Shown one piece after another: positions 9,412 through 40,537 of a stretch of DNA of 50,890 nucleotides (the stretch's first letter is position 1; every line of letters begins with the position of its first letter). The notes beneath the pieces were generated by a model, which had not been told where the DNA came from, did no database searches, and saw nothing but the letters and a program-made list of their open reading frames with translations. Origin of the DNA: Rubripirellula sp. GTDB lineage: Bacteria; Planctomycetota; Planctomycetia; Pirellulales; Pirellulaceae. Where the stretch lies: positions 1-50,890 of the forward strand of contig JAPKCI010000016.1 of the NCBI GenBank assembly GCA_028823035.1, in the 5' to 3' direction. Made by a program: the position numbers and the translations under genes.

Positions 9412-11445
9412 ATGAACACGACTGCTATCATCATTGCCGGCATCAGCGGGATCGCGCTGGGTCTGCTTGCCTACCGAATTCTTCGCAACTGGAGTATTGC
9501 CATCGCGATACCCTTGCTGGTGGTCGCTGGGGCCGCAGTTCTGATCCCTGAAAAGAAATTGCCCCTCGAAACCAGCCCCACAGTGGCAGTTGATCCCAAC
9601 CTTCCAGATGACTCTGGAAAATCGGTGGCCGACAGCGCCGAGACAAGCATCATGACTCTCGCGAGCCTTCAGCATACACGCCCTGTTGAAGTCCCTAAGG
9701 ACGGCTACGTCGGTTCAGATGCCTGTATCGAATGTCATCAGGACAATCACACCACGTGGGCGGAATCCTATCACAGCACCATGACACAATTGGCAACGCC
9801 AGATGTGGTGATGGGGAATTTAGAGAGCGTTCGTTTGTCCTTTCAAGGTCATGATTATGAAATCCACCGTGAGGGAGACGTGTTCTGGGCAGATTTACCC
9901 GATGAAAAATTCCCCGATGTCAAGAGTAAACGCAAAGTTGTGCCACTGGTGATGAGTACCGGATCACACCACATGCAACTCTACTGGTGGGCGACTGGCG
10001 ATGATCGAACCACGGGACTCCTGCCTTTTGTTTGGGTTGCCGAAACGGGGGAGTGGATCCCCCGGAATGCCTCATTCCTGCAACCGAACGTTGCGGTCTC
10101 ACAGGAAATTGGTCGCTGGGGTCAGACCTGCAGTATGTGTCATTCAACCCACCGCCGAGTCAGATCGACCACTTCAGACACGTGGGATACAAAGGTTGCC
10201 GAATTTGGGATCTCGTGCGAGGCCTGTCATGGACCGGGACAGCCGCACATCGATCATCATCGACAACTTGCACTCGCAGTCACGAATACCAGCGATGGCA
10301 CGTCCGAAATCAAGCAAGATCCAATTGCCAATCCCGAATCGATGGACAAGGTTCGGTCAGCTCAAGTCTGCGGTCAATGCCATTCTGTCGTCGAACTGAC
10401 CGGTGGAAAAGAGGGAATCGAGCATTTGAACATGCATGGTCACGGTTTTCGTCCGGGTGGAGATTTTGCAGCTTCCCACAAAGTCCTGCGCATCGATGAG
10501 CATGACGCGACCAGGGAAATCATGGATCCAAACAATCCCGCGGCAGCAAAATTCAATACGACGTTTTACAAGGACGGCATGGTGCGGGTATCCGGACGGG
10601 AATACAACGGCCTGACCGACTCAGCCTGCTACAAGAAAGGCGAAATGACATGTATTACCTGTCACCAGTTGCATCAGTCATCCCTCGATGACCGCCCCGT
10701 CAAGGAATGGGCCAATGACCAACTGAAACCAGAAGCGTTGAATGATCAGATTTGCTTGGACTGTCATTCCGAAGACCAATACAACACCAGTCACACTCAT
10801 CACGCCGCCGGTTCCTCCGGATCAAGTTGCTACAACTGCCACATGCCTCATACCACCTATGGTCTACTCAAGGCAATCCGCAGCCATACGATCACCAGTC
10901 CCAACGTCGCGAAGGATGTGGCAGCCGGGCGTCCGAACGCCTGCAATCTTTGCCATCTCGACAAGACACTGCAATGGACCGCTGACAGCTTGAAAAAATG
11001 GTACCAGATCGAACCACCCGAACTGGATAAGGACCAACGAGAGATCGCAGCCTCATTGCTGTGGATTCTCAAAGGTGACGCGGCGCAACGGGCCTTGGTC
11101 GCGTGGAGCATGGGCTGGCCTGCGGCGCAAGCAGTTTCGGGTACGAACTGGCAAATGCCATTCATATCGCAGTTATTGGATGATCCCTACTTGGCGATCC
11201 GATTCATTGCCCGTCGTTCGCTACGCAGCCTGGAGGGACTTGATGACTTGAAAGTGAATATGTTCGGACCCCCAGAAGCACGTCAGGCCGCCATCGCGGC
11301 GATTGCGCAATTCTGGTACGAGACGCAAGAAAGTTCAGTATCCAAACAAAGCGAACTGCTATTCGGCAAAGATGGACTGGACTTTGAACGTGTGCAGCGT
11401 TTGCTGCGTGAATGTGATAACTCACCTGTCGTTCTTGATGAGTGA
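9412..11445 (+). CDS. Eight-heme c-type cytochrome with C-terminal helical domain
   Basis: AAGGAG at 9402-9407 places the start at the ATG at 9412, giving 677 residues. Two hydrophobic segments lie in the first 45 residues. From residue ~105 to ~512 there are eight CxxCH motifs: CIECH, CSMCH, CEACH, CGQCH, CITCH, CLDCH, CYNCH and CNLCH. After the last heme, residues ~540-640 are helical with alternating hydrophobics (LLDDPYLAIRFIARRSLRSL), resembling HEAT-like repeats. The gene is divergent from the 7-heme paralog, and the 212-base gap between starts could hold a shared control region. Role: extracytoplasmic electron transfer or an unknown redox reaction. Confidence 0.93.
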   Translation: MNTTAIIIAGISGIALGLLAYRILRNWSIAIAIPLLVVAGAAVLIPEKKLPLETSPTVAVDPNLPDDSGKSVADSAETSIMTLASLQHTRPVEVPKDGYVGSDACIECHQDNHTTWAESYHSTMTQLATPDVVMGNLESVRLSFQGHDYEIHREGDVFWADLPDEKFPDVKSKRKVVPLVMSTGSHHMQLYWWATGDDRTTGLLPFVWVAETGEWIPRNASFLQPNVAVSQEIGRWGQTCSMCHSTHRRVRSTTSDTWDTKVAEFGISCEACHGPGQPHIDHHRQLALAVTNTSDGTSEIKQDPIANPESMDKVRSAQVCGQCHSVVELTGGKEGIEHLNMHGHGFRPGGDFAASHKVLRIDEHDATREIMDPNNPAAAKFNTTFYKDGMVRVSGREYNGLTDSACYKKGEMTCITCHQLHQSSLDDRPVKEWANDQLKPEALNDQICLDCHSEDQYNTSHTHHAAGSSGSSCYNCHMPHTTYGLLKAIRSHTITSPNVAKDVAAGRPNACNLCHLDKTLQWTADSLKKWYQIEPPELDKDQREIAASLLWILKGDAAQRALVAWSMGWPAAQAVSGTNWQMPFISQLLDDPYLAIRFIARRSLRSLEGLDDLKVNMFGPPEARQAAIAAIAQFWYETQESSVSKQSELLFGKDGLDFERVQRLLRECDNSPVVLDE

Positions 11446-11480
11446 CACTGTACGGGGCGATCTCTGTGGAACAGATCCGA

Positions 11481-14462
11481 CTAGCGTTGCGTCAGTATCG
11501 TCTGTCCTTGGACAGCGAGATAACGATGGTGCCCTGACACATTCTCAAACACCTGTGGATCATTCGAGGGCCAATGGATTGTTACTTTGTCGATAGTCGT
11601 TTGGTCACCCAAACCAATGTGGATGATTGACTCATTGGTACACATGTAGCCGTCACCCGCGATCTGCCAACCGGTCCATACCTGATCCCCGGCCTCGACT
11701 ACCACACGAGCCCCAATTGCATCCCGCTCTGAAACAGTGCCAACCAGTTCCAGTTGCAACCAGTTGCCAGTCTCACTCTCATTTTGCAGAAGGGCGACAG
11801 GGTAATCGAGATGATTGGAAACCATGTCCATTTTGCCATCGCGATTCCAATCCAGTGTCGCCAGCGTCCGACCCAACTGAGGCCGCTGCCAATAGGCAGA
11901 CAAAGAATCAGACGATTGAAGCGTGAAACCGGCAGCTCCGCCTCGAAACAACTGCGGCTTCATTCGAAACGGAATGTCAGCGTAACGGGCATCATAAATG
12001 TGGCCATTGAGTACTGCTAAATCGGACCAGCCATCGTTGTTATAGTCCGTAGCCTGAACACCGAATCCAAGCACGTCCTTGGACGATTCGGCCAACCCAA
12101 AACGCAAGGCATCATCGGAAAAGAAACCCGACTGGTTTTGCAGAAAAAGATTCATCGGTTCGTTGTGGAAGTTCGTCACGCCCAAATCAATCCAGCCGTT
12201 CCGATCAAAGTCACTGGCTGCGATTCCCATACAAGCCTGGCTTCGACCCGATACACCGATGCTGCAACCTGAGAAACCCGCAGATTCGACAAGTTTCCAG
12301 GCAACGTCTCCGACAGACTCATCTGGTACGCTTTGCCAGAAATGATTGAGGTCGCCATCGTTTGAAACAAAGACTTCGTTGCCACCCGAACGACCAAACT
12401 TTGTCACAATCAAACCAAAGCCATAATTGGGGCGAGCGTCCAACGCCTTTGTTTCTGAATCCGACACTGCAAACGTTCCATCACCAAGGTTTTCAAAGAT
12501 GCGATCCGAGGCGGCACGAAATCTCTGCGGCGTGCATGACAACCGTTTCCCTTGGCACTTCTGCTCAAAAATCTGAGGATCGTTCAGATAATTGACTTCG
12601 ATGATATCTGGCAAGTTGTCGCCATCCATATCCGCCAAGGCAATACTTGAAGTCCAGCGACTGTCCCGTGAGTGAACAGCTTCAGAGTCTTCACGAAACG
12701 TCCCATCACCCTGATTCAAATAGACTGAATTGCGACCAATATTCGCAACGATCAGGTCGGGGAAACCGTCCTGATTCATGTCACCAACGCAAACCCCTTG
12801 CCCGTACCTTCGATCTGCCACCTCAGCAGCAATGCCAACACCTGTGTAAACCCCCTCAGGCAGTTGTCTGAAAAACTGATTCGGCTCAGAACTGTCAACC
12901 GATTGTGGACTGCCACCTGTCTGCACAACGTACAAATCGCAAAGCCCGTCCAGATCGTAATCCAAGGCAGCAAGACCACCGCCGTTTGCCTGGTAAAGAT
13001 AGAAATCAACCTCCTCCGTGGGGTACTCGCTGACGAAATCGACCTCCAAACCGAGTTCCCGTGCGACGTCGCGAAACGCCAACTTGCCGCCCGAATCGGT
13101 CTGCGGAACTATCGGTGGCAACGCGTTCCCCAAACCATCCAGCTCAGGCAACGGATACTGCCTAATGTCAAAACCGACCAATCGATCGACGCGTGATTCG
13201 CGTACAAAATCCGACCCCGTTTTTTTCTCCCAAGCATCGATCTGATCGCGACGCTCATTGAGTTGTGGGTTCGACTGCGGATCAGAGCCCTGAAGCCGAA
13301 ACGCATGCTGGTACCAACCGAGGGACTCCCATGGTCGGACCAATTTATGCAATTGCTCACCAATCCACATGGCTTGTGTTCCATCAGCACTGGAAGCGAC
13401 CCGAAAGAGCTGATCCAGAATCGCCAGATTCTCACGTACGCCTGCTGCACTGGTTGCATCACCGATCCGTTCCAGCGCGGCAGCCAGCGCTCGCAAAGAT
13501 GCACGGTCGGTGGAATCGATCAGCAGGGCTTCGCCAAATGCCCGTACCGCCTCGCGATCACGCCCCAACCCCACCAGTCTCGTTCCGATCGCAGCCCAGT
13601 ACTCCGGGTGTTGCTCTGTCCCAGCAGCTACATTGTTCAACCATTGCTCGAACGCTGCATCATCCCCTACCTCGGCAATCAAACGGCCACGAAATGCATC
13701 GAGGGCCGGATGAGAAAGGGTCGTGGCCAGACGATTCACAATATTCAATGCCGCTTCAGCGTCAGCCTCAGCAACAAACAAGTGACGGGCAGTCCCCAGT
13801 TCCATCAGACTATTGCTGGGATCACTGACGACCTCGTTCAAGGCCACCAGCATGAAAGGGCTGTTCAATTCGACAAGGCTTAACAGCTCACGGGGCTGGG
13901 CATCGTTCAACCGTATTAGATTCAGAATGAATTCACGGGCTTCAAATCGTCGCCCCTCGGCATTGAGCAATTGTGCCATGGCGTGATGGGCGCGAGGATC
14001 GGTCGACGCAATCCGGATCGCCGCACGCAAATCATCCTCGGCAGCCGCCACCTCGCTGGCCCGCAGGTGCCAATCGAATGCAGTCAGCCAATCTCCCAAT
14101 CCCTGATCGCCATTGAGTTTCCCCAGTTCACGAGCAATTTCCGCTGCCTCTGTAAAATCACCGTTGGCCTCGTATACCGACGCAACCGCCTGCAAAGCAA
14201 CCCTGTCATGGGGCGATTCAATCAGGACACGTTGAGCCAACTGGAATGCCTGCTCAGTCTTGCCCTGCTGAAGCAATGCCCAAGCCTGCTCGCCCGACGT
14301 GGCTTGCGAATCAGGACCGGCTTCACGAGGGACTTGTGAAACATTACCCGTAGCAAGCGGCTCTGGAGCCACATTCACTGGGTTTGAGTTTTTGTCGCAA
14401 CCGACCAGTAACAACCCCAGCCAAACCGCCAACACCAACGACGAAAGAGAAGGCCCTTGCAT
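11481..14462 (-). CDS. CRTAC1-type lipoprotein: TPR, FG-GAP/VCBS repeats, ASPIC/UnbV domain
   Basis: I start the protein at the ATG at 14462 because it gives a clean lipoprotein signal (MQGPSLSSLVLAVWLGLLLVGC); the frame is open 66 bases further upstream. Domain order in ~993 residues: TPR-like helices ~40-370; FG-GAP/VCBS beta-propeller repeats ~450-900, with Asp-rich loops such as DYDLDGLCDL, DMNQDGFPDL and DWNRDGKMDM; then an ASPIC/UnbV domain ~910-985 (RDAIGARVVVEAGDQVW, ending IHIGLGDQTTIDKVTIHWPS). Such proteins are surface-exposed in planctomycetes. It is convergent with the 8-heme gene, 35 bases apart, suggesting one functional locus with the cytochromes. Confidence 0.93.
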   Translation of the reverse strand: MQGPSLSSLVLAVWLGLLLVGCDKNSNPVNVAPEPLATGNVSQVPREAGPDSQATSGEQAWALLQQGKTEQAFQLAQRVLIESPHDRVALQAVASVYEANGDFTEAAEIARELGKLNGDQGLGDWLTAFDWHLRASEVAAAEDDLRAAIRIASTDPRAHHAMAQLLNAEGRRFEAREFILNLIRLNDAQPRELLSLVELNSPFMLVALNEVVSDPSNSLMELGTARHLFVAEADAEAALNIVNRLATTLSHPALDAFRGRLIAEVGDDAAFEQWLNNVAAGTEQHPEYWAAIGTRLVGLGRDREAVRAFGEALLIDSTDRASLRALAAALERIGDATSAAGVRENLAILDQLFRVASSADGTQAMWIGEQLHKLVRPWESLGWYQHAFRLQGSDPQSNPQLNERRDQIDAWEKKTGSDFVRESRVDRLVGFDIRQYPLPELDGLGNALPPIVPQTDSGGKLAFRDVARELGLEVDFVSEYPTEEVDFYLYQANGGGLAALDYDLDGLCDLYVVQTGGSPQSVDSSEPNQFFRQLPEGVYTGVGIAAEVADRRYGQGVCVGDMNQDGFPDLIVANIGRNSVYLNQGDGTFREDSEAVHSRDSRWTSSIALADMDGDNLPDIIEVNYLNDPQIFEQKCQGKRLSCTPQRFRAASDRIFENLGDGTFAVSDSETKALDARPNYGFGLIVTKFGRSGGNEVFVSNDGDLNHFWQSVPDESVGDVAWKLVESAGFSGCSIGVSGRSQACMGIAASDFDRNGWIDLGVTNFHNEPMNLFLQNQSGFFSDDALRFGLAESSKDVLGFGVQATDYNNDGWSDLAVLNGHIYDARYADIPFRMKPQLFRGGAAGFTLQSSDSLSAYWQRPQLGRTLATLDWNRDGKMDMVSNHLDYPVALLQNESETGNWLQLELVGTVSERDAIGARVVVEAGDQVWTGWQIAGDGYMCTNESIIHIGLGDQTTIDKVTIHWPSNDPQVFENVSGHHRYLAVQGQTILTQR

Positions 14463-27914: not shown

Positions 27915-30458
<2,544 letters not shown>

Positions 30459-33280: not shown

Positions 33281-33354
33281 GGCGGCATAGCTCAGTTGGT
33301 TAGAGCAGCGGAATCATAATCCGCTTGTCGGGGGTTCGAGTCCCTCTGCCGCTA
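33281..33354 (+). tRNA. tRNA-Met (CAT anticodon)
   Basis: 74 nucleotides fold as a full cloverleaf: acceptor GGCGGCA pairs with TGCCGCT (one G-U at the end), D-arm AGCTCAGTTGGTTAGAGC, anticodon arm GCGGA - ATCATAA - TCCGC with CAT at the anticodon, T-arm with TTCGAGT loop. The features fit elongator tRNA-Met; tRNA-Ile with a modified CAT cannot be excluded by eye. The CCA end is not encoded. Its 3' half overlaps the end of a decayed recombinase gene (see pseudogene at 33314-33955). Confidence 0.93.
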
Positions 33355-33955
33355 CTCGGGCATGATCCAACATGTCCACAACTTCCGAAAAACTCGCGTT
33401 TTCCTGCACCGTTTGATCGGTGCAGGTTTTCTTTTGCACCTCAGTGCGAGACGAAACGGGCGTTTGCATCCCCATTGAGTCCCCATTTTTGGAAGCTGAC
33501 GTGAAGTGTTCATCGGTCACGGTCAGATTATGCTTCTGAGCTACGACCGGACTGTTGCCCAGCCATGAACAGACCACATAGGTGGGATACGTCTGCTCCA
33601 ATTCAGTTTGCCGGCTGGAACGAAAGTTCTGGAATGGCTTTGGCCATGGCTCCACCCCTGCACGCTTCACAAGCTTCCCGAAGGTGGTTCCCAGATTCTT
33701 GTCAGGATTGCCATTGAGCATCGGCACAACCCACGTCTCTCCCTCAGATGCCACTGCAAAGACATCCTCAAGATACCCTCGCAGCTCAGGGAAAATTGGG
33801 ATCACTCGTGTTGGCTTCCCGTAACGCTCGGACTTGGCAGTCGTGGCTAACTGCATGGGGGACACTGCAGCGTTTTCGATCGTCGGAGCGTAATGACGTG
33901 ATGGCTTGCATCGAAGCAGCGCTACTTCTTCTCGGAGGAGATGCTCTTTCGGAGA
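33314..33955 (-). pseudogene. Decayed tyrosine recombinase (integrase) ending in the tRNA gene
   Basis: The longest in-frame part starts at a GTG at 33865; the same frame is open upstream to 33955 with matching content (EEVALLRCKPSRHYAPTI, a degraded 'EVALLRW..D..' region), then stops. Conserved integrase blocks: RVIPIFPELRGYLEDVFA, 'FQNFRSSRQTELEQTYP' with the catalytic Arg, VVCSWLGNSPVVAQKH. Where the nucleophile Tyr belongs (KHYL) the sequence reads KHNL, and the N-terminal arm-binding/core part is gone. The C-terminal residues VAAEGLEPPTSGL are translated from antisense tRNA-Met, the mark of integration into the tRNA 3' end. I infer an inactive remnant. Confidence 0.8.
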
Positions 33956-34795: not shown

Positions 34796-35995
34796 CTAGA
34801 TGCGAACGATGTGTTCGCCGGATGCAGCGAGTTCTGTCATCCAGGCATCCGCGGTTTGACGATTGGACGGGGCGGCAGATACACCGGGCGACAGCTCGCC
34901 ATCCATGACGGCTTCGACGGCAATGCTGACTGTCTTTGAAACGAGACGCGCCATGGCACTGCCTGCTGAGTTACCGTGTTCGTCAAGTGTGTACGCGCCT
35001 CGCCACGCGGGATTGACGCCATCGGTGACAATCAACTCGACATGCAGGATGACGCGGTCAGGTTCGTCCGGCTCATAAGCGTACTGGTTCCACAATTGGT
35101 CGCTTAGAGTGATGAGCCTGTCCTCGGCGGTTGAGTTGTCCTCGGCAGTTGAGTTGTCCTCGGCAGTTGAGTTGTCCTCGGCGGTTGAGTTGTCCTCGGC
35201 GGTTGAGTTGTCCTCGACGACCGCAAAAACGTCGCGCCAGGCTTCGGCCCAGCCGTCCAGTCGTAGCGTGCCGCGGACGAATGATTGCAGGTTAAATTCG
35301 GACGTGAATCCGTACTGTTCGGCGAATGGAATCGAGTCCCGGTTCGGATAAGCCTGAAATGTCTCCTGACCGCCTGGCAGGTTCACGGTACAGGACGACA
35401 GAGCTTTCCAGGGTTTGTCGGTTGCTGTTTCAGCACCGTTTTCGATCCAGCGTGCAGGGGTTTTCAAGGCTCGCAGGACACCCAGCGGCGACCAGCTGAA
35501 CTTGTATCGAAAATCATTCGCCTGACTCGGGAATCCGCCGCAGAACGAACGAAAACGATGCAAGTGTCGTGGGTTCATGACGCCGGACGCCTGGTAGTCA
35601 GCCATCAATACATGCGCCATCAGATGGTCGATGCCCGGGTCGAGCCCCACCTCGTTAACGAAACAGAGATCATGCGTTCTGGCGTCGGCGTCCAACGCCT
35701 GCATTGCGGGTGAAACGTAGCTACTGGAAACGAAGTGGAGACGATGTTGCAGACAGAATCCAGCGACTTGCAGGTGAAGATCGGCCGGTAGCATCGAAAC
35801 AACGACGTCGCCAGGTTGAACCGCCACAGCTAACGCTTCCCAGTTGAGTTCGCGTGCCTGTCCGCCGCCATCCATCGCATCCACCGCTTTGGACAAGGTT
35901 CGATTCCAGAGGACAAACGCACGGCCTGATGCAGCAAGCCGCCGTATTCCCGGAACTGACGAAAGGCCAGCACCGAGCCAGTGTATTGTGGGCAT
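34796..35995 (-). CDS. LYS9-type saccharopine dehydrogenase/reductase
   Basis: Start at the ATG at 35995 (MPTIHWLGAGLSSVPG, a Rossmann GxGxxxxP loop); the frame is open 39 bases further. About 399 residues. Family blocks: 'FVSSSYVSPAMQALDADART', 'CFVNEVGLDPGIDHLMAHVL', 'FRSFCGGFPSQANDFRYKFS' and WSPLGVLRALKTPARWIENG, all typical of the glutamate-forming saccharopine dehydrogenase (LYS9/AASS C-terminal half). It joins 2-aminoadipate 6-semialdehyde and glutamate or the reverse. A five-fold EDNSTA insert lies at about residues 260-290. Last gene of the operon, 35 bases after the LYS1-type gene. Confidence 0.87.
   Translation of the reverse strand: MPTIHWLGAGLSSVPGIRRLAASGRAFVLWNRTLSKAVDAMDGGGQARELNWEALAVAVQPGDVVVSMLPADLHLQVAGFCLQHRLHFVSSSYVSPAMQALDADARTHDLCFVNEVGLDPGIDHLMAHVLMADYQASGVMNPRHLHRFRSFCGGFPSQANDFRYKFSWSPLGVLRALKTPARWIENGAETATDKPWKALSSCTVNLPGGQETFQAYPNRDSIPFAEQYGFTSEFNLQSFVRGTLRLDGWAEAWRDVFAVVEDNSTAEDNSTAEDNSTAEDNSTAEDNSTAEDRLITLSDQLWNQYAYEPDEPDRVILHVELIVTDGVNPAWRGAYTLDEHGNSAGSAMARLVSKTVSIAVEAVMDGELSPGVSAAPSNRQTADAWMTELAASGEHIVRI
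35121..35210. repeat. 18-bp in-frame tandem repeat (5 copies)
   Basis: TCCTCGGCRGTTGAGTTG is repeated five times in tandem (one base varies), encoding five EDNSTA units on the minus strand inside the LYS9-type enzyme. Confidence 0.95.
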
Positions 35996-36030
35996 AAAAA
36001 CGAATTCCAATGTGATGGCGGTTTGCGAAT

Positions 36031-37101
36031 TCAAAGGTCCCCAAGCGTTTGCTCAAACTTACGTCTCGCGCCCGACCAGACTTCATTTCGGGTGTCAGAC
36101 AGGTTGAGCAAATGCGGTACCAGTTGATCTGAAAAGTCTTCCGAACTTTCCTTCGGGAGCAATGATGGCAGATGATCGATTGCGATCAGATCCAGTGGAT
36201 TTTCGCCTGCGACGACGCGTTGTAGTGGATCGGCAAACGTCGTGCAGCGATCGTAAACGGGTAACGGATTCAATTCTCCGGACGGATCGCAACTGACGTC
36301 GCAAATGACCGACAACCGACGTGGTTTCGCCAGTAACTCAGGCGTCAGGAACGGCGGAATCCGCGTCGACACAAAGACGCAGTTAACGAATATGTCATGT
36401 TCCAGAATCTGCTCGAATGGTCCTCCGTTTCGCGTTTCTTCGATGTCCCAGAGCGTGATGTCAGCGTTCAGTTCGCGAAATATTTCCGTGGCTCCGCCCC
36501 CGCAGCGACCGGCGGCGCCGATAACCATAACGCGTGGGGCTTCGGAACAATGGCTCAACTGTTGACGGCAACGATCAATCAGTCCGTCCTTGTTCGGACA
36601 GGACGTTAACCGTGCCAACTCAGGAACTTCCTCACAACGTTGACCGGCCCATGCCATCGTCGCTACGCCGGCACCTGCGAAACCCGCCCAGTATCCGAAG
36701 GCGGCCACGCGGCGTCCGTCAGTGTTGACCAGATACTCGAGGTCGTACAGCGTCCCGCCGCCGCTTTGGAATCGTGACAGCAAGTCCTGCCATCCTGCCT
36801 GCTGTTTGAACGCGTGAGCAAAGTAGATATGCCGATGGTGAACCTGCTCAGATGACTCAGGCAGTTCTTTCAGTCCAAGGATAAAGGCGTGCGGCGGGGC
36901 CGACTGCCACGCGCCTGCCGCAACCAATGAACATCCAGCGGAGACATAATCGTGGTTCGAGAATGCGCGAGTGTCGCTGCGTTCGACGAACATGCTGATC
37001 CCCGCGTCCGCCAAGACAGCGGCATCGGCTGGCGTCAGCGGCGTGCGCTGTTCGAACGGCTTGCTTTCGGATCGGAGCCAGATTGTCGTTCGATTTTTCA
37101 T
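36031..37101 (-). CDS. LYS1-type saccharopine dehydrogenase (lysine-forming)
   Basis: 356 residues starting MKNRTTIWLRSESKPFEQRT at 37101; the start overlaps the preceding stop by ATGA. The AlaDh/PNT-type N-domain carries 'LTPADAAVLADAGI', the catalytic Lys in 'ILGLKELPESSE' and the catalytic His in 'IYFAHAFKQQAGW', followed by 'GTLYDLEYLVNTDGRRVAAF' and GYWAGFAGAG. These match fungal LYS1 closely. The NAD domain follows with 'VMVIGAAGRCGGGATEIFR' and 'VICDVSCDPSGELNPLP'. It converts saccharopine + NAD to lysine + 2-oxoglutarate, reversibly. Confidence 0.92.
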   Translation of the reverse strand: MKNRTTIWLRSESKPFEQRTPLTPADAAVLADAGISMFVERSDTRAFSNHDYVSAGCSLVAAGAWQSAPPHAFILGLKELPESSEQVHHRHIYFAHAFKQQAGWQDLLSRFQSGGGTLYDLEYLVNTDGRRVAAFGYWAGFAGAGVATMAWAGQRCEEVPELARLTSCPNKDGLIDRCRQQLSHCSEAPRVMVIGAAGRCGGGATEIFRELNADITLWDIEETRNGGPFEQILEHDIFVNCVFVSTRIPPFLTPELLAKPRRLSVICDVSCDPSGELNPLPVYDRCTTFADPLQRVVAGENPLDLIAIDHLPSLLPKESSEDFSDQLVPHLLNLSDTRNEVWSGARRKFEQTLGDL

Positions 37102-40100
37102 GTTTGGTAATTGTCGGGCAAGGTACTGAGGACGTCATCCAGCGTTGCCAGCAAGTGATCGGCATTCTCTGTGGAAAATGGCATCGGTGGTCGAATTTTG
37201 AGAACATTGTGCATCGGGCCGTCGGTGCCGATCAGGATGCCTCGTTCGGCCAAGCGATTGACAACAAAATCGGCTTCGTCAACTGCGGGTTCGAGCGTGT
37301 CGTGATTGCGAACGAGTTCCACTCCCAGAAACAGTCCCGCTCCCCGAACATCGCCAACGACAGCGTGTCCGTCAGCCAGTGCATTCAGACCCTCGAGCAG
37401 GTGATTCCCCACTCTCAAAGCGTGTGCCTGCAATCGCTCATCTTTGACAATTTCGAGCACGGCTAACCCGACGGCGCACGAGACGGTGTTACCGCCGAAG
37501 GTACTGAAGAACTCCATGCCATTGTCGAAAGAACTAGCGATGTCGGGCGTGGTGATGACTGCGGCAATCGGGTGCCCGTTCCCGATTGGTTTTCCAAGCA
37601 CAACGATGTCCGGTGTCACAGCCTGTGACTCAAAAGCATAGAAATGCGAACCAATTCGACCGTAACCGGTTTGCACTTCGTCCGCGATGCAAAGGCCGCC
37701 GGCGGCTCGCACATGGGCGTACGCCGCGGCCAGATAACCTTGAGGCAAGATGATCTGTCCGCCCACACTCGGGCAGGATTCGGCGATGAATCCGCCGATC
37801 GCACCGCCAGCCCGATCAATCGTCTCGGCAACAAATTCGGCGAACTTCGGCCCAGCGTCCGGGACGTCTCGCCGATAAAGACCTCGATAGGTGTCGGGAA
37901 TCGGTACGGTGTGCACCCAATCCGGGGCTCCTGTTCCGCCTTGGCTGTCGTGCTTGTACGGACTGATGTCGATCAACGATGTCGTGTTACCGTGATAGGC
38001 GTGTTCCAGAACGATCATCTCACGGCGTCCAGTATGTGCGAGGACAAGACGCAAAGCCAATTCGTTGGCCTCGCTCGCCGAGTTGACCAAGTAACAGACA
38101 CTGAGGGCGTCCGGAAGCGTCGATGTAAGTCGCTCGACGTAGTCGCCAAGGTTGCCGTGAAGGTATCGCGTATTGGTGTTCAGCAATCGCATTTGCCGGT
38201 CTGCCGCTTCGACCACTTTCGGATGGCTGTGACCGACATGCGGCACGTTGTTAAAAGCATCGAGGTACATGCGGCCAGTGTCGTCATAGAGGTACTGGTC
38301 GAGTCCGCGAATCATCTGAAGCGGGCGGTCATACCCCGTTCTCACGTTGCGACCTACGAACTTGCGCCGCACGGCGAGCGTCGCATCACTACTCGCACGC
38401 TGTTCCGGAAAAGCAGTCGCAGAGATACCAACAAGTCGATTGGGATCCGGGCAAAATGACGTCCACACTTCGCGTTGGCTCGCCCGGCACACGCCCGGAA
38501 AAGAATCGTCCAGGTCCAGCAGGTCAGTGATCACCTGCAGGTGCAAATGTGGCTGCCAACCGCCGTTCTCTGCACTAGTGCCAACGGTGGCAAAGGGCTG
38601 TCCGTTTTCGATGGACTGCCCAACTTCGTTCTCCTGTAACGATTCGCGGCTGAGATGGCCGTACAACGTGTAGAAGACAAGGTCATCAACTTCGTGGCGT
38701 AACACGATCGTTGGTCCATAATCCTGTGCATGGGCTCGATCGGCGGATGCATGGACGACGCCAGCAAGGGGCGCATGCACTGGCGTATTGGCTTCGACGA
38801 AGAAATCCATGCCCAGGTGAATCGTGCGCCGTTCGTCGGTGGGGCAACAACCGCCGAACGCATCATCCGTGTAGATGAGCCGCACCTCGTCGTAGCGGCC
38901 AATGGCCACATCTATGGTCGAGCGCGACATGGCCTTTGCCACCAAGTCCCCAAGTGCCCCCTCGCAATCACGACCGACCGGCAAGTCCGCGTTGCAAGGG
39001 CTCAGGTCCAGAATCGCAGGTGATACCGTTCGCAAATCGAACGGCATGATTGGCGAGACAACGTCCTGATTCTCGAGCAGCCAATGTCCTACCGCCACGG
39101 CAGTAGGATTGGGCGTGAAACCACATGCGTTACGAAATGTGGCTTCGGCAAACCTCGGATGTACGTCGAGCAAGTGATGGAGAGTTCGCTGGATTGGTTG
39201 CTGACTGACACTCAGATAAGGGTCGTCGGGGCGAAGCCGTTGTTGGAACGCAGCCATGCAAGCACTGACTGCCAGGCGAGCGCATGCCATCGGGAACACC
39301 ACAGCCAATTCGTCGTCACTCAGCGGCCTAACGGCCTGATACCCTTCAACGACGCGGGTTGCAGCCATCAACGGGTCCGGTTTATCGAGCATCGCGTACG
39401 CAACTGCGATCGCCAGACCGGAAACGGTGTAGCTGTGGACCATGTCGCCGAAATCGATCAACCCGACGACATGCGGTTTGACCAACGTCGTGCGCTGAAC
39501 AATGACGTTCTGGTCATTGGCATCGTTGTGGATGACACTTCGTTCGAGCTCCCCCAGACGCGGCGCCACGTATTGGGCAAAGATCGACTGCACCTCGCCG
39601 ATGTGGCTGCGGATCTGCGAATCTTCCACTTTATCGATATGACGGTCAATCACGACCGGAGCGTTGCTGAGATCCCACGGAAAATCGCTTCGATGTAGCG
39701 CTGGGTGATCAAGACCTTTGAGGACGCTGTCGACCTCGGCAACACAGGTGCCCAAATGACGCAACACATCAGGATCTTGCCATTTGCAGCGTGACAACAC
39801 TTCACCCGGCAGCCAAGTCATGAGTCGCGCACAATAGGCCGATCCGTTTGCACGAACCTCAAAGAGATCATCTCCGGAGTGTGTCTGGATGAGTTCCGGA
39901 CAATAGGTGACCTGCCGTGCCTGCAGCCGGGCCATGGCCTGATTTTGAGCTTCGAGAAACGACCGGTCCTCTTCACCATTGGCGATCTTCAAAACAAACT
40001 CGCGACCGTCGTCGGTGCGAAGTCGGAAATTCTGGTCGCGTTCGCTCGGCAGCACATCCGCCGTGACTTTCAATCCGTAAAATTCGCGAGCGATCTCGCA

Positions 40101-40145
40101 CGCATACTCCGGACTCAAATTTGGCGACTGGCTGATTATCGACAT
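37098..40145 (-). CDS. Fusion: hydroxylysine-kinase-like + M23-like + AGXT2L-type phospholyase
   Basis: 1015 residues in three blocks. (1) ~1-340: APH/HYKK-like kinase, with 'LPSERDQNFRLRTDDGREFV', HNDANDQN (catalytic Asp/Asn) and GLIDFGD (metal Asp). (2) ~420-560: LytM/M23-like domain with HLGMDF, LYGHLS and HLHLQV, so all usual Zn ligands are present. (3) ~595-1010: class III PLP fold of the AGXT2L/ETNPPL/PHYKPL type: NVPHVGHSHPKVVEA, 'SASEANELALRLVLAHTG', HAYHGNTTSLIDISPYK, ADEVQTGYGRIG, GKPIGNGHP with the PLP Lys, and STFGGNTVSCAVGLAVL. Blocks 1 and 3 predict hydroxylysine -> allysine. First gene of the operon; the LYS1-type gene overlaps its stop by ATGA. Confidence 0.9.
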   Translation of the reverse strand: MSIISQSPNLSPEYACEIAREFYGLKVTADVLPSERDQNFRLRTDDGREFVLKIANGEEDRSFLEAQNQAMARLQARQVTYCPELIQTHSGDDLFEVRANGSAYCARLMTWLPGEVLSRCKWQDPDVLRHLGTCVAEVDSVLKGLDHPALHRSDFPWDLSNAPVVIDRHIDKVEDSQIRSHIGEVQSIFAQYVAPRLGELERSVIHNDANDQNVIVQRTTLVKPHVVGLIDFGDMVHSYTVSGLAIAVAYAMLDKPDPLMAATRVVEGYQAVRPLSDDELAVVFPMACARLAVSACMAAFQQRLRPDDPYLSVSQQPIQRTLHHLLDVHPRFAEATFRNACGFTPNPTAVAVGHWLLENQDVVSPIMPFDLRTVSPAILDLSPCNADLPVGRDCEGALGDLVAKAMSRSTIDVAIGRYDEVRLIYTDDAFGGCCPTDERRTIHLGMDFFVEANTPVHAPLAGVVHASADRAHAQDYGPTIVLRHEVDDLVFYTLYGHLSRESLQENEVGQSIENGQPFATVGTSAENGGWQPHLHLQVITDLLDLDDSFPGVCRASQREVWTSFCPDPNRLVGISATAFPEQRASSDATLAVRRKFVGRNVRTGYDRPLQMIRGLDQYLYDDTGRMYLDAFNNVPHVGHSHPKVVEAADRQMRLLNTNTRYLHGNLGDYVERLTSTLPDALSVCYLVNSASEANELALRLVLAHTGRREMIVLEHAYHGNTTSLIDISPYKHDSQGGTGAPDWVHTVPIPDTYRGLYRRDVPDAGPKFAEFVAETIDRAGGAIGGFIAESCPSVGGQIILPQGYLAAAYAHVRAAGGLCIADEVQTGYGRIGSHFYAFESQAVTPDIVVLGKPIGNGHPIAAVITTPDIASSFDNGMEFFSTFGGNTVSCAVGLAVLEIVKDERLQAHALRVGNHLLEGLNALADGHAVVGDVRGAGLFLGVELVRNHDTLEPAVDEADFVVNRLAERGILIGTDGPMHNVLKIRPPMPFSTENADHLLATLDDVLSTLPDNYQT

Positions 40146-40537
40146 GGCGAGAAGTACTTAAAACCTGAAGCGTAGTCCGAATTCTTATCGATGAACTGAC
40201 GCAGATGATACGACACCGATAATCTACTCACTTCTCCATCAACCACCGTTCATCCAGCACACTGTGCATTTACCCTGAGGATTCAATACCATATTTGCTT
40301 TATCCGTACATGTCAATAATTCTCAATTCGCAGCAGGCGATGACTGCGCCGGTTCGACAACCGGTTCGAAACGGCTTGCGTTCAGTCCAGCAACAGCCGT
40401 CGAACATGAACATCTCAGAATTCATCGCAACGGACATTCGAACCCGGATTCAATCCGGCCAAGGCCGACGTCGGAGGGTGTTCAAAAGTCTGACACCTCG
40501 GACGCTGGAACGCTTCTTGAAGTCCATCTCCGAACCA
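40146..40537. other. Intergenic region with a possible GntR-like fragment
   Basis: No complete gene. A plus-strand frame from 40340 reads MTAPVRQPVRNGLRSV and later ISEFIATDIRTRIQSGQ, which resembles the first helix of a GntR winged-helix domain, but then loses any resemblance and runs antisense into the sialidase-like gene. Confidence 0.35.

Follow-up and report, generated by a model that had tools for sequence, protein, structure and literature searches.

A candidate operon for salvage of hydroxylysine to lysine, combining a kinase-M23-phospholyase fusion with two saccharopine dehydrogenases, in Rubripirellula sp.

The window analysed here, by which we mean the whole stretch of 50,890 nucleotides from Rubripirellula sp., carries three consecutive minus-strand genes, encoding a long fusion protein, a LYS1-type saccharopine dehydrogenase and a LYS9-type one. 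These genes, and the features within and upstream of them, are as follows.

40288-40316, minus strand: sigma-70-like promoter match TTGACA-17-TATGGT upstream of the operon, weak, the region holding 2 such matches against a shuffle mean of 2.8
37098-40145, minus strand: kinase-M23-phospholyase fusion, 1015 aa, open frame, assigned by Pfam, PRK06148 and fold comparison
39348-40037, minus strand: HYKK/APH-type kinase domain of the fusion, residues 37-266, PF01636 (E = 1.3e-22), with motifs HNDANDQN (206-213) and DFGD (231-234)
38529-38822, minus strand: M23 zinc-peptidase domain of the fusion, residues 442-539, Peptidase_M23 (E = 3e-16), with H443, D447, H497, H533 and H535
37128-38321, minus strand: phospholyase domain of the fusion (Aminotran_3), residues 609-1006, with presumed PLP lysine K852
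36031-37101, minus strand: LYS1-type saccharopine dehydrogenase (NAD+, L-lysine-forming), 356 aa, open frame, assigned by Pfam and homology to yeast Lys1
34796-35995, minus strand: LYS9-type saccharopine dehydrogenase/reductase (NADP+, L-glutamate-forming), 399 aa from ATG, assigned by Pfam and homology
35119-35216, minus strand: 18-base in-frame tandem repeat (EDNSTA units, 5.4 copies) inside the LYS9-type gene, missing in both relatives aligned

The stop codon of the fusion overlaps the start of the LYS1-type gene in the four bases ATGA, and 35 bases separate the end of the LYS1-type gene (36031) from the ATG of the LYS9-type gene (35995), for which an alternative TTG start lies at 36034, with the frame open from there too. 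The strand, overlap and spacing given in a preliminary description of this DNA are confirmed from the frames at these coordinates, and the operon layout it proposed is upheld by the overlap and the short gap. The GC content of the operon is 0.54-0.58, compared with 0.51-0.57 elsewhere in the window, and a neighbouring gene encodes PVC-type heme-binding and DUF7133 domains, which suggest a planctomycete. A tRNA-Met (33281-33355, plus strand) is overlapped by an open reading frame (33314-33865, minus strand) that resembles, by eye, the end of a tyrosine recombinase and has no Pfam match; the operon could lie within an integrated island. A separate feature of the window is an internal 15-base repeat (DHQNS units, 29399-29450) in a HerA-like ATPase gene (27915-30458).

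The enzyme families first proposed for the three genes are borne out by matches far above chance (1235 bits for the fusion, E = 1.6e-88 for the LYS1 type, and E = 6e-40 for the LYS9 type). Of the fusion, the kinase and phospholyase recognised earlier both stand, however that description was incomplete in overlooking the M23 domain between them, with Pfam resolving three parts rather than two: an APH-fold kinase, an M23 zinc-peptidase domain, and a class-III PLP phospholyase. The protein is a full-length member of NF004799/PRK06148 (1234.8 bits over residues 5-1008, curated cut-off 1128), a model named only ‘hypothetical protein’, and its AlphaFold model has a mean pLDDT of 90.2 and a pTM of 0.87. 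In an alignment of 103 sequences, the kinase residues Asp208, Asn210, Asn213, Asp231, Gly233, and Asp234 are invariant in all 99 sequences covering them, and PF01636 together with this motif alignment gives the kinase domain both the APH fold and the catalytic motifs expected of the HYKK type; searched alone against the PDB, the kinase part matched no chain at 0.01.

The middle part of the fusion matched M23 peptidases in the PDB, with His443, Asp447, His533, and His535 identical in all 94 domain-bearing sequences and His497 in 93 of them. By analogy with family M23, these five residues are the presumed zinc ligands and catalytic histidine, and the domain carrying them is a predicted peptidase. 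Five relatives from the same order, all of one genus (L134-L138), have frames of 784-789 aa which match the kinase and phospholyase but not the middle part, so that the M23 domain appears dispensable in these five. The presence of a strongly conserved M23 active site inside an apparent two-step small-molecule enzyme is a puzzle in its own right.

Proteins of this family are spread across many phyla, and of 217 relatives found, 80 fusion loci (L014-L093) were analysed. Conservation of gene order among relatives had been proposed as a test of the operon, and in the sets examined the order proved not to be conserved, which counts against the proposal: a LYS1 or LYS9 match above 45 bits lies beside the fusion in none of these 80 (14, including L014, have less than 1.2 kb downstream), and none of 12 flank sets from the same order has either gene beside it. 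The saccharopine genes were rejected as conserved neighbours of the fusion on these counts. L014 is the closest relative of the fusion (75%), with the contig stopping inside the gene, and neither AASADH, the allysine dehydrogenase, nor LYS1 was found in its genome. Among 21 genomes of the same genus as the present one, none has a full-length fusion and two have a C-terminal-only match. The three-gene row seems to have been put together locally, perhaps on DNA that was acquired, for which the contrast in GC content is weak evidence.

The 396 genomes of the order were treated as one set in searches for LYS1, the fusion, and AASADH, with LYS1 found in two, the present genome and G339. In the latter, which belongs to the same family, LYS1 and LYS9 form a pair next to a PAS/AraC-type regulator, and searches of this genome found no fusion, no AASADH, and only weak class-III aminotransferase matches (29-30%); since no fusion is found there, the pair would have a role of its own in G339. 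A search for LYS1 and AASADH also covered 50 of the 80 genomes with the fusion, detecting LYS1 at 1e-15 in three. One of these, G452, has a LYS1 of 56% identity on contig C111 and the fusion on C310, with no LYS9 found, and another, G453, has distant LYS1-like and LYS9-like matches on separate contigs, with AASADH present. In the third, G450 (the Thorarchaeota genome that contains L070), a LYS1-like and a LYS9-like gene of 27% identity lie next to each other, 18 bases apart (L170 4083-6751, minus strand), on a different contig from the fusion, with no AASADH found in the genome. At genome level, the predicted combination of the fusion with a saccharopine pair is not unique to the present genome, with G450 a distant parallel.

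The putative PLP lysine of the phospholyase domain, Lys852, is kept in 103 of 103 aligned sequences, and an Arthrobacter phospholyase and human ETNPPL are the nearest relatives of the domain by sequence and fold. Identity is 49% to human ETNPPL (6tor, TM 0.96, E = 3.6e-137) and 40% to a phosphoethanolamine-type lyase (5g4i, E = 6e-93), with the next PDB entry at E = 2e-52, placing the domain nearer to the phospholyase group than to other class-III enzymes. The PDB matches listed include neither a PHYKPL nor a HYKK entry, the best solved match being a phosphoethanolamine enzyme, and a viral fold search added nothing. In a tree of 103 phospholyase domains the fusion pairs with L014, and the AASADH-linked proteins are scattered, a pattern that speaks neither for nor against LYS9/LYS1 having directly replaced AASADH. 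Three standalone matches (L011-L013) were rejected as relatives, forming a distant group in this tree. L012 is flanked by open reading frames that resemble, by eye, nucleobase permease and dihydropyrimidine-breakdown genes, and given these neighbours it is probably a beta-alanine-type transaminase.

The similarity to phosphoethanolamine-type lyases is consistent with the fusion being an ethanolamine kinase and phosphoethanolamine phospholyase that would yield acetaldehyde, with the LYS1/LYS9 pair a chance neighbour, as is the lack of conserved gene order described above. The overlap of four bases between the fusion and the LYS1-type gene argues against this, as do the genes found beside the fusion in other lineages. 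An AASADH-type aldehyde dehydrogenase (ALDH) adjoins the fusion in eight of the 80 loci, lying upstream on the same strand in two planctomycetes (L045, L074), and, in six loci belonging to a Latescibacterota-type clade, ~1 kb downstream on the opposite strand. Furthermore, among the 12 order flank sets, one (L133, same family as the present genome) has an AASADH-type gene overlapping the fusion. Four of these nine adjoining ALDHs were scanned (L045, L074, L087, and L133), and all pass NF050084, L-piperidine-6-carboxylate dehydrogenase, at 755-782 bits (cut-off 730). The chance of at least three adjacencies in 80 loci is 8e-5, a rough value that assumes 4 of 4000 genes and ignores relatedness. 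Between the fusion and AASADH of the six Latescibacterota-type loci lies a PhyH-type dioxygenase gene (L085 5925-6791, minus strand, the one representative scanned), the product of which might hydroxylate lysine.

Co-occurrence within the order points the same way. The fusion was counted in 13 genomes matching at 1e-120, six of them from one genus (five without M23, the sixth cut by a contig end), and AASADH, at a threshold of E<=1e-120, in 80 of the 396 genomes. AASADH is present in 12 of the 13 genomes with the fusion compared with 68 of the 383 without it (Fisher 2.5e-8 by genome), and in 7 of 8 genera with the fusion compared with 39 of 136 without (Fisher 0.0015), a comparison by genus that handles relatedness only partly; in a smaller hand-chosen set AASADH occurs in 13 of the 14 genomes with the fusion and in 4 of the 29 without it. 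The one exception among the 13 is the present genome, where LYS9 and LYS1 stand in place of AASADH. No AASADH was found in it at 1e-80, and of its 12 ALDH matches nine were scanned, with a best pip_6_carb_DH score of 234 among the matches listed, compared with the 730 needed. The link is weaker in the many-phyla sample, where AASADH is present in 22 of the 50 fusion genomes and missing from 28, the latter count favouring an ethanolamine substrate. AASADH was rejected as a constant companion of the fusion on this sample.

Further context comes from plasmids of alphaproteobacteria, where an Lrp/AsnC gene lies just upstream of the fusion in five of the seven loci opened, and an amino-acid transporter substrate-binding gene just downstream in four of these five. 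The two loci outside this group of five carry amino-acid ABC transporter genes on the upstream side of the fusion, plus further neighbours. This context is not uniform: a Paracoccus plasmid locus has the fusion next to genes for a MurR/RpiR regulator and a glutamine-synthetase-family protein, and one Sinorhizobium plasmid locus has a mixture of amino-acid and sugar transport genes near it. A Sinorhizobium plasmid (L156) also has a second long ‘aminotransferase’ gene (10244-13174, minus strand), beside hutC/hutF and one gene from the fusion, possibly a paralogue with another substrate. In Rhodothermales/Bacteroidota-type loci (L062 7880-14992 among others), the fusion is preceded in five loci by a DHDPS-family gene, at a median gap of 11 bases, and followed in eight by a gene for aminopeptidase P, as seen in the representatives scanned; these neighbours may suggest the use of collagen-type peptides.

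Together, the AASADH links and the Lrp/AsnC and amino-acid transport genes of the rhizobial loci argue for an amino acid that yields allysine, that is, hydroxylysine, more than for ethanolamine. Hydroxylysine is a modified amino acid typical of collagen. The preliminary description had preferred it to ethanolamine as substrate, and this preference is backed by the AASADH adjacencies, the co-occurrence within the order, and the rhizobial gene neighbourhoods. The kinase domain would convert 5-hydroxylysine to 5-phosphohydroxylysine, from which the phospholyase domain would eliminate phosphate and ammonia to give 2-aminoadipate-6-semialdehyde (allysine). We consider it highly probable that the fusion makes allysine from hydroxylysine, and improbable that it acts on ethanolamine beside an unrelated saccharopine pair.

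The LYS1-type protein aligns with yeast Lys1 over its full length (E = 1.6e-88, residues 5-351 of 356) and matches AASS far more weakly (E = 1.4e-19). The LYS9-type protein is likewise related along its length to fungal saccharopine reductase, with a small margin over AASS (E = 6e-40 for the Magnaporthe enzyme, E = 5e-33 for AASS), and has both the NADP domain and the C-domain expected of its type (PF03435 and PF16653, Sacchrp_dh_C, above cut-off). The nucleotide-site aspartate of the LYS1 type is present (LWDIEET, compared with KWDIKET in yeast), as is the corresponding arginine of the LYS9 type (LWNRT, compared with ACRT in Magnaporthe), residues which presumably select NAD and NADP respectively, the fungal lysine-making pattern. 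The LYS9-type enzyme would join allysine to glutamate with NADPH, giving saccharopine, and the LYS1-type enzyme would use NAD+ to release lysine and 2-oxoglutarate. The present genome also has lysA (398 bits, cut-off 298), so that LYS1 and LYS9 should not be needed for de novo synthesis of lysine. Flow from hydroxylysine to lysine is favoured by the lack of a detected AASADH, the presence of LYS9 and LYS1 in the same operon, lysA, and the fungal residues at the nucleotide sites.

Both saccharopine steps are called reversible in PMC9854754, so that sequence cannot fix the direction. Run from lysine through saccharopine to allysine, LYS1 and LYS9 would take part in a joint breakdown, in which lysine and hydroxylysine both drain to allysine and an unrelated ALDH would oxidise it to aminoadipate. 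This is the main rival of salvage and a serious one, given the reversible steps, the G339 pair without a fusion, as expected of a lysine pathway, and the other ALDH genes of the present genome, one of which could oxidise allysine; the animal routes for hydroxylysine and saccharopine likewise meet at allysine, as set out in PMC5200902. Against joint breakdown stand the AASADH that all 12 other fusion genomes of the order have and that was not found here, and the presumably lysine-making residue pattern. We judge joint breakdown possible, if doubtful. A precedent for the salvage direction comes, by analogy, from Penicillium, where pipecolate is made into lysine by way of saccharopine reductase, according to work cited in PMC9854754. 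If the fusion makes allysine from hydroxylysine, net flow to lysine is rather probable, and we hold salvage of hydroxylysine to lysine by the operon as a whole, with its predicted substrate, direction, cofactors, and activity, at about even confidence.

LYS1- and LYS9-type genes also occur in other settings. On a Streptomyces plasmid they are clustered with ATP-grasp, MFS, and SidA/IucD-type genes (L153 5001-11041), perhaps a natural-product pathway with saccharopine chemistry, and in Paraburkholderia a LYS1-type gene adjoins an ATP-grasp gene. These neighbourhoods would suit a pair that turns allysine or lysine into an opine-like compound or another secondary product, the allysine being provided by the fusion, however no ligase or exporter gene adjoins the operon among the neighbours scanned, and the similarity of the LYS1-type protein to true Lys1 is very strong, making a secondary product a slim prospect here.

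Salvage of hydroxylysine to lysine could also be extended to include the M23 domain, as an active zinc hydrolase that would release hydroxylysine bound in a small peptide or conjugate, with the kinase and phospholyase then giving allysine, and LYS9 and LYS1, in replacement of AASADH, giving lysine. We regard this full scheme as unlikely.

The operon and the AASADH links give an uncharacterised fusion family of many phyla a concrete, testable candidate function, which, if true, would mean that bacteria use a collagen-type amino acid for energy or, in the present genome, as a source of lysine. The enzyme parts are known, and the three-gene row is in no other genome examined. To our knowledge, no bacterium has been described that leads a modified amino acid back to lysine by such a route. 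Among the literature matches listed, judged by title and the start of the abstract, with most subscription papers outside the scope of the search, none concerns the fusion or bacterial conversion of hydroxylysine to lysine, and neither the three-gene row nor its reading as lysine salvage is in print among them. The fusion of kinase and lyase had probably already been noticed in 2012, as the reference list of the review PMC12138971 puts Veiga-da-Cunha 2012 among its gene-fusion references.

Of the known systems, the fungal Lys9-Lys1 end of the aminoadipate pathway has the same enzyme types and the same predicted cofactors, however allysine is predicted to come here from hydroxylysine rather than from aminoadipate reductase. 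Saccharopine lysine catabolism in animals and bacteria (LKR/SDH or AASS, with AASADH) passes through the same intermediates; in contrast, AASADH was not found in the present genome, and the LYS1-type protein is much closer to yeast Lys1, and the LYS9-type protein slightly closer to the fungal enzyme, than to AASS. Human ETNPPL and the Arthrobacter phospholyase A1RDF1 share the fold of the phospholyase domain at 40-49% identity, whereas the domain is fused here to a kinase and M23, in a context that points to allysine rather than acetaldehyde. Bacterial kinase-M23-phospholyase proteins of PRK06148/NF004799 match the fusion at full length and above the curated cut-off, the difference being an operon with LYS1 and LYS9 types, seen in none of the 80 loci. 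The animal enzymes HYKK and PHYKPL, which Veiga-da-Cunha reportedly described in hydroxylysine catabolism in 2012, carry out the same two reactions predicted here, from hydroxylysine through 5-phosphohydroxylysine to allysine, a pathway also given in PMC5200902. In contrast to the animal pair, the two activities are predicted to reside in one polypeptide with an additional M23 domain, and their product to proceed to saccharopine and lysine rather than to aminoadipate.
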